Positions 772 to 17,924 of a stretch of 39,020 nt of DNA are shown here, in pieces (within the stretch, counting starts at the first letter, position 1; every line of letters begins with the position of its first letter). The position numbers and the translations under genes were made by a program. The DNA lies in IMG/VR virus record IMGVR_UViG_3300025312_000222, positions 1 through 39,020 of that record; one strand, given 5' to 3'. The DNA comes from a virus. The notes below the pieces were generated by a model. It saw only the letters and a program-made list of their open reading frames with translations, was not told the origin of the DNA and ran no database searches.

Positions 772-1105
772 AACGGTGAAAGCGACGGTAAGTAACCGCG
801 TTGTGACAGACCCGAACGACCGTCTGTTCCCACAGACGGGATTTAGGGAATGTGCTGTTAGTAAGGAGCGAAGGGATGGTGTGGAGCGTTTACCAAGGCG
901 CGGAAGCATATCCTCGGCCCTTGTCACATGGGGTGCATCTTGCGAAGTTGGAGCTAAACCAGAAATGGGGAAGCTAGGTGAAACAACGAGACACAGGCGG
1001 CTCTTAAATACACTTATCCTGTGAAGATAACCAGGGATAGGAGCTTAGAGGTAGGCAACCCTCTCAACGACTATAAAGCCCATCGAGAGGTGGGCTTTAT
1101 ATTAT
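772..1105 (+). ncRNA. Stand-alone structured RNA gene, about 330 nt, family unknown
   Basis: It is bounded by a near-consensus promoter and a strong terminator and has no plausible coding frame. Visible helices are CCGTCTG with CAGACGG (about 820-840, 6-nt loop), a long-range TGTGACA (about 802) with TGTCACA (about 922), and TATCC with GGATA (about 1015-1040). CCTCTC (1060-1065) is complementary to GAGAGG in the terminator loop (1085-1090), a potential pseudoknot. It shares the short string GTAACCGCGT with the upstream structured region (about 333). It is not tmRNA, RNase P or 6S by any motif I can see. Its position beside phage tRNAs is typical of large ornate phage RNAs. Confidence 0.6.
1073..1103 (+). 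terminator. Rho-independent terminator of the 772-1105 RNA
   Basis: ATAAAGCCCA (1073-1082) and TGGGCTTTAT (1091-1100) form a perfect 10-bp stem with an 8-nt loop, followed by ATTATCTT. The loop can alternatively pair with the upstream CCTCTC. Confidence 0.8.
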
Positions 1106-17316: not shown

Positions 17317-17693
17317 TGGACGCGAGGAGAATCGAACTCCTGTCTTACATATCATAACATTAAATCTTATAGCAGCTTTTGGGGGCACCAAGTGCGGTTT
17401 ATCCAACTCCACCTTATCGTCTTTCCGATTCGTCAGACCCGATTCGCCGGGGATTCCACTTAGTCTTTCCTAAGAGTCAGGAAGATGCTTCAGATTTTAT
17501 TCCGACGCCCTCCGCCACGCTTAATTTCTGTTCGATGGTATTAAGCGAAAACCAGTTCTCGCGCAGGAGCTACGGTAACTGCTCCGGCGAAGAAAAGATG
17601 TGTTACATCTTTTGCGTTTATTTGTTTTGACATTAGGCTGTCAACCGCTGCAATTTAATATCTGTTTTATATAATCGAAACCTTTACGCGCCC
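17317..17693 (-). ncRNA. ssrA: Phage-encoded tmRNA with 24-residue tag
   Basis: 377 nt. The 5' end GGGCGCG (17693-17687) pairs with 3' CGCGTCC (17324-17318), with discriminator A and CCA not encoded. TTTCGAT follows the 5' acceptor as in all tmRNAs. The T arm AGGAG-TTCGATT-CTCCT precedes the 3' acceptor. The tag frame runs from GCA (17615-17613) to TAA (17543-17541): it starts AKDVTHLFF, ends ARELVFA and has 24 residues, compared with about 10-12 in typical bacterial tags. Long tags are known from mycobacteriophage Bxz1-type tmRNAs. The hydrophobic end should be a degron. It starts one base after the stop of the upstream gene and may be processed from the operon transcript. Confidence 0.9.
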
Positions 17694-17924
17694 TTACGCC
17701 TCCATTAATAGACTTTCATCTTTATCTGATACTACTACTTCAAAATATAGCATGTCCTCTACCTCTTTGTCAAGGAACTGCTTGCGTTTTTGTTGTCTTC
17801 TTAACTTTTCGTGATACTTTATGTTCGCGCACACAACACCGCTGCTTGTAACGAAACCATGACCTTTTTTGCCAAGTAACGGCGAACCGCATATGCTACA
17901 TCTTCTTCTGTAATTTTTTGCCAA
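17694..17924 (-). CDS. Small zinc-ribbon-like protein, 76 aa
   Basis: CSICGSPLLGKKGHG and a later Cys (VVCAN) suggest a small zinc ribbon, then a basic helix (KLRRQQKRKQF) and an acidic C-terminus. It lies between nrdJ and the tmRNA with no spacer on either side. Function unknown. Confidence 0.65.
   Translation of the reverse strand: MAKNYRRRCSICGSPLLGKKGHGFVTSSGVVCANIKYHEKLRRQQKRKQFLDKEVEDMLYFEVVVSDKDESLLMEA

Follow-up and report, generated by a model that had tools for sequence, protein, structure and literature searches.

A candidate orphan RNA gene beside a divergent RNase P RNA in a phage tRNA island

Genomic setting of the locus

The window analysed here is an entire IMG/VR virus record of 39,020 bases, from a phage that encodes a terminase, a DnaE-type polymerase, RecA, a class II ribonucleotide reductase, ThyX and a tmRNA. 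No close relative was found among named phages. Three larger viral records share about 77% of terminase residues with it; of these, G001 (IMGVR_UViG_3300001372_000001) alone extends over the region discussed below; searches via the neighbouring proteins (terminase, RecA, uracil-DNA glycosylase and the protein encoded at 2295-2855) also led only to G001 for this part of the genome.

The locus lies in a tRNA island, and all of its features are on the plus strand. A divergent RNase P RNA (81-490) stands between two tRNA-Thr genes, the second of which occupies 492-661 together with a tRNA-Gln gene. The operon of tRNAs and RNase P RNA ends in a terminator at 702-721, which has a counterpart in G001. 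It is followed by a promoter at 737-765, a segment of about 334 nt at 772-1105 that is the main subject of this analysis, and an intrinsic terminator at 1072-1101. Further downstream, a three-gene operon (1186-2298) encodes a PF25682 (VG64-like) lipoprotein, uracil-DNA glycosylase and a small membrane protein; a good promoter was not seen directly before it. The VG64-like protein (1186-1578), members of which occur in 797 phage records, is up to 66% identical to mycobacteriophage proteins, and the copy in the window begins with a lipoprotein-type signal. The stretch between the segment and this operon (1116-1185) contains TTTAGTTT/AAACTAAA, a perfect 8-bp match, which could form a hairpin and so occlude the region between the Shine-Dalgarno sequence and the start codon at 1186.

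Transcription signals and composition of the segment

The promoter is of the sigma-70 type, TTGACA-17-TATCTT, as an earlier sequence-only reading had stated, with a TG before the -10 hexamer (TGcTATCTT), and transcription is expected to start near 772. The 39-kb window holds nine promoter sites that match at least 10 of 12 bases, this one among them. Another of the nine, at 17773 on the minus strand, combines TTGACA and TG in the same way and is located some 80 nt upstream of the tmRNA gene (17317-17693, minus strand). The tag of this tmRNA is AKDVTHLFFAGAVTVAPARELVFA, and the tmRNAs of G001 and G003 carry different tags. In G001, a GTGCTAT(A/C) -10 element occurs at the same place, after the tRNA-operon terminator.

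The hairpin at 1072-1101 is the strongest hairpin terminator of the window, with 13 pairs, five of them G-C; only one other stem of at least nine pairs in the window has five G-C pairs. It had been described as a perfect 10-bp terminator, which was an undercount, as the stem consists of 11 perfect pairs followed by U-G and C-G, the last closing a GAGA tetraloop. The two signals thus frame a unit of about 334 nt, close to the 330 nt claimed before.

The composition of this unit is extreme. Its GC content is 0.52 against 0.38 for the window, the highest among all 775 intervals of 300 nt, and its bases are 31% G, 29% A, 21% C and 19% U. High G and low U are not combined to this degree in any of the 3098 intervals of 300 nt taken from the two strands. 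A make-up of this kind resembles that of large structural RNAs (rRNA-type composition). The reading frames of the segment have codon scores that are near zero or negative, compared with 0.3-0.7 for the genes of the phage, and its open frames gave no Pfam, PHROGs or tblastn match. Signals, composition and the missing coding signal together support the proposal that 772-1105 is an independent non-coding transcription unit adjoining phage tRNA genes, and no ordinary protein gene was found in it.

Predicted folding

With the terminator included, the segment folds better than its shuffled versions (z from -2.4 to -3.0). With the terminator excluded (772-1070), it folds no better than shuffles (z -0.53). 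In the same test, the phage tmRNA reached -3.5 and the phage RNase P RNA -2.1. The signal that remains is confined to a 5' domain at 800-930, which alone has a z of -2.23, with 8 of 300 shuffles as good. Pair probabilities place in it a hairpin at 820-839 inside the helix 811-813/846-848, a second hairpin at 886-901 on a stem of 873-882/906-914, and a possible closing helix at 803-808/922-927. A predicted 3' domain (931-1070) holds a GNRA hairpin, CCAGAAATGG, at 959-968 and a hairpin at 1013-1041; the stability of 928-1070 is at shuffle level (z 0.06).

The proposal of several helices is partly supported: the 5' domain folds better than shuffles, and 772-1070 as a whole does not. The long-range complementarity of TGTGACA (802-808) and TGTCACA (922-928) is present as described, but a long-range match of 7 bp turns up at least once in 59% of dinucleotide shuffles, so that this helix stands at chance. 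The proposed pseudoknot with the terminator loop needs GAGAGG at 1085-1090, of which the first four bases form the GNRA loop and the last two are already in the stem. Because this loop is a GAGA tetraloop closed by C-G, the pseudoknot would have to open the top of the stem; it is possible but not supported. The term 'structured RNA' is partly supported, by the composition and the 5' domain and not by overall folding energy, since only 800-930 beats shuffles once the terminator is removed.

The neighbouring RNase P RNA

The sequence-only reading had overlooked the RNA at 81-490. Its comparison with G001 identifies it as a phage-encoded RNase P RNA of divergent sequence, located within the tRNA operon, with a core at about 187-488 and a conserved 5' element at 81-183. 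The G001 segment that separates tRNA-Thr from the following tRNA matched the class A model RF00010 over its full length at 71.6 bits (E 1.6e-21), short of the 100-bit cut-off, and 81-490 is homologous to this RNA at the same site (E 8e-32). Rfam misses the RNase P RNA at 81-490, and a profile built from 21 viral RNase P RNAs found 355-466 of the window with an E of 1.6e-4.

The homologue of 81-490 lies at L008 10353-10769 (minus strand). Between the tRNA-Thr gene and the RNase P RNA is an element of about 103 nt that is conserved, at 81-183 in the window and at about 10667-10769 of L008 (minus strand). It is closed by AGATAYAC/GTGATGTATCT, ends in a shared 26-mer and has no Rfam match. At about 10270-10345 of L008 (minus strand) lies a tRNA-Thr(CGT) with a degenerate fold, which was missed by ARAGORN and is syntenic with 492-563 of the window.

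The letters of the core have changed while the pairing has been kept. The sequences of P1 and P2 are quite different in the window phage and in G001, with perfect pairing in both, and P3 differs by one A-U to U-A change. The P4 helix is among the most conserved parts of the RNase P enzyme. Here, 81-490 has GAGGAACGTTAGGC / AGACAAAAGCCTTCGT in place of the canonical P4 and CR-V nucleotides, and ACAGAA is changed to ACAAAA. P4 shows A-U to C-G and C-G to A-U changes and one C-G to U-U change, with the bulged U kept; most of the rewriting of this helix consists of paired changes. That pairing was kept while the letters of P1, P2, P3 and P4 changed indicates that 81-490 is under selection for its fold despite the altered core, and it may still cut tRNAs.

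RNase P RNAs of this kind are found in other viral records. A motif scan of IMG/VR for RNase P RNA yielded 56 stretches, and 29 records were then tested. A class A RNase P RNA match was obtained in 26 of them, 18 above the Rfam cut-off, and most of the 26 have tRNA genes close on one or both sides. Some of these RNAs are only 207-235 nt long. Examples, drawn from G001 and G006-G030, are G021:C1:82201-82407, G027:C1:101792-102012 and G011:C1:305811-306131. Phage hallmark genes were confirmed in four of the 26 (G001, G021, G024 and G027), and the assignment of the others to viruses rests on the IMG/VR classification. Named phage records contain almost no RNase P RNA. A literature search found no paper on a phage-encoded RNase P RNA, which does not show that none exists; RNase P RNA may be a so far undescribed trait of phages that have large sets of tRNAs.

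Search for relatives of the segment and comparison with known RNAs

The segment at 772-1105 was compared with Rfam covariance models, GOLLD and ROOL included, by cmscan of 766-1110 and 70-1300. At the gathering thresholds and at E values up to 10, chance hits only and no family match were obtained, in agreement with the statement that no known RNA class fits. Inspection of the segment by eye revealed no group I or group II intron core and no self-cleaving ribozyme motif. Searches with blastn against named phages and plasmids gave no homologue, and the terminator hairpin alone was matched. No homologue was found in the related viral records or in 40 further records, 25 of them viral with RNase P RNA. 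Pattern scans of IMG/VR, which as exact-pattern scans reach only near relatives, gave one match with GGTGAAACAACGAGACA, within a gene of an unrelated contig, and 26 matches with TAAACCNGAAANGGGGAA, none of them alike. The VG64 and uracil-DNA glycosylase genes do not travel with this RNA in named phages.

In G001, the nearest sequenced relative, the segment is absent from the same site; the conserved tRNA-operon terminator is followed directly by a promoter of similar core (GTGCTATAAT) and protein genes. G001 has the same tRNA island and yet no such RNA, which weakens the argument that a phage would retain a gene of this type only for its usefulness.

GOLLD and ROOL resemble the segment in being long non-coding RNAs in units of their own adjoining phage tRNA genes. 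A setting near tRNA genes has been reported for both (PMC12286853), and here tRNA-Thr and tRNA-Gln lie at 492-661. Many GOLLD members are longer than 800 nt (PMC12286853), whereas the segment has about 334 nt, and it has no covariance-model match to either family even at E values up to 10; the kinship to GOLLD and ROOL suggested earlier is thus not borne out. Elaborate pseudoknotted structures supported by covariation, and homo-oligomeric cages, are features of GOLLD and ROOL.

Class A RNase P RNA (RF00010), represented by the neighbour at 81-490, shares the tRNA island and a similar length class with the segment. The segment differs in having no GAGGAAAGUCC and ACAGAA core in the right order, and this P4 core with ACAGAA in order and closing P1/P2 helices was not found in it; nor is it found by the viral RNase P profile. 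Two short motifs, GGGGTGCA and AGACACAGG.CGGCTCTTA, were considered as RNase P motifs in 772-1105 and ruled out by the same profile. Riboswitch and attenuator leaders share with the segment a promoter, a structured leader and an intrinsic terminator, with an operon 80 nt further on. The segment differs from them in having no family match and no competitive antiterminator that could be found.

Possible nature of the segment

The segment is a credible but unproven orphan RNA gene. We give a probability of about one half to the reading that it encodes, as a gene standing by itself, a trans-acting non-coding RNA of about 334 nt and is part of the translation-RNA island of the phage. In favour of this reading are the promoter and terminator at matched distance, the base composition and maximal GC content, the missing coding signal and protein relatives, the z of the 5' domain, the stability of the terminator, and the adjoining tRNA genes and RNase P RNA. 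Against it stand the lack of a homologue among the records searched, the absence of the RNA from G001 and the z of -0.53 for 772-1070. Host-type RNA polymerase would start at the sigma-70 promoter and stop at the intrinsic terminator, and the product would belong to a phage set of translation RNAs together with the tRNAs, the RNase P RNA and the tmRNA. It would fold at least in its 5' domain and may be stable and accumulate during infection. At a guess, its target could be the tRNA or ribosome machinery, on which it would act as a structural RNA, a role also suspected of GOLLD and ROOL. Sequence statistics are the basis for the boundaries of the unit and for calling it non-coding; its transcription and role are inferred.

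The main rival, to which distinctly less probability is given, is that 772-1105 is a long cis-acting leader, similar to an attenuator or riboswitch, in which the promoter at 737 serves the operon at 1186-2298 and the terminator is switched. The end of the terminator and the start codon of this co-directional operon are 80 nt apart, for which no promoter of its own was recognised, and the promoter at the same site in G001 drives protein genes directly. Possible attenuator elements are also present at 1047-1095: the terminator loop and 3' arm (AGAGGTGGGC, 1086-1095) have a near-copy 39 nt upstream (AGAGGTAGGC, 1047-1056), a 9/10 match that occurs in 1% of shuffles, and CCTCTC at 1060-1065 is able to pair with either copy, including GAGAGG at 1085-1090. 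However, the local fold has -24.3 kcal/mol with the terminator and about -7 before its 3' arm is made, and none of the alternative structures approaches the terminator in stability. The hairpin at 1072-1101 is therefore expected to be a constitutive end, the alternatives found in the leader all being much weaker. The segment matches no known riboswitch or leader family, and the gene content downstream in G001 is wholly different, so that no leader is conserved with its gene.

It is unlikely that the segment is non-functional, that is, foreign or decaying DNA that came to lie by chance between a promoter and a terminator. The chance-level fold without the terminator, the chance-level long-range helix, the failure to find homologues and the absence from the nearest relative would all suit such an origin, but promoter, terminator and extreme base composition coincide on one non-coding segment, and no foreign source was matched among named phages and plasmids.

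Slightly less likely again is that a known RNA (RNase P RNA, tmRNA, GOLLD, ROOL or an intron) is present here in a form so divergent or degraded that the models fail to recognise it. The negative Rfam result carries little weight here, because Rfam also misses the true RNase P RNA of the same window, and the short look-alikes GGGGTGCA.TCT and AGACACAGGCGGCTCTTA recall RNase P RNA motifs. However, the profile that finds the RNase P RNA at 355-466 does not find 772-1105, the segment has no similarity to the RNase P RNA of G001, and the order of the motifs does not fit. A tmRNA is opposed by the lack of a T arm or tag frame, and ARAGORN already places the phage tmRNA at 17317-17693.

A short mRNA with structured untranslated ends, encoding a 33-residue peptide, is improbable: the frame (863-977, with AAGGAG at 863-868, ATG at 876 and a stop at 975-977), which had been missed before, does open with AAGGAG 7 nt before its ATG, as in strong ribosome sites of the phage, but it is probably due to chance, as 3.6% of shuffles yield the same arrangement, its codon score is -0.14 (852-974) against 0.3-0.7 for real genes, and it has no Pfam or PHROGs match.

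Returning to the stand-alone gene, an extended form of this reading is that the phage carries a full RNA-based island for tRNA maturation, composed of tRNAs, a phage RNase P RNA whose P4 is rewritten, and, at 772-1105, a new class of RNA acting together with it, for instance as a cofactor, a substrate-recruiting RNA or an antagonist of the host enzyme. This extension is highly speculative.

Significance

The RNase P RNA at 81-490 is a stronger finding than the segment at 772-1105 itself, and it raises the interest of that segment. The tolerance of paired P4 changes in one viral RNase P RNA makes the limits of the core directly testable. That phages with long tRNA arrays also carry RNase P RNA suggests that they take over tRNA maturation in addition to tRNA supply. 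If it is transcribed and folded, the RNA of 772-1105 would add an unassigned class to the small number of large RNAs that phage tRNA islands are known to encode.
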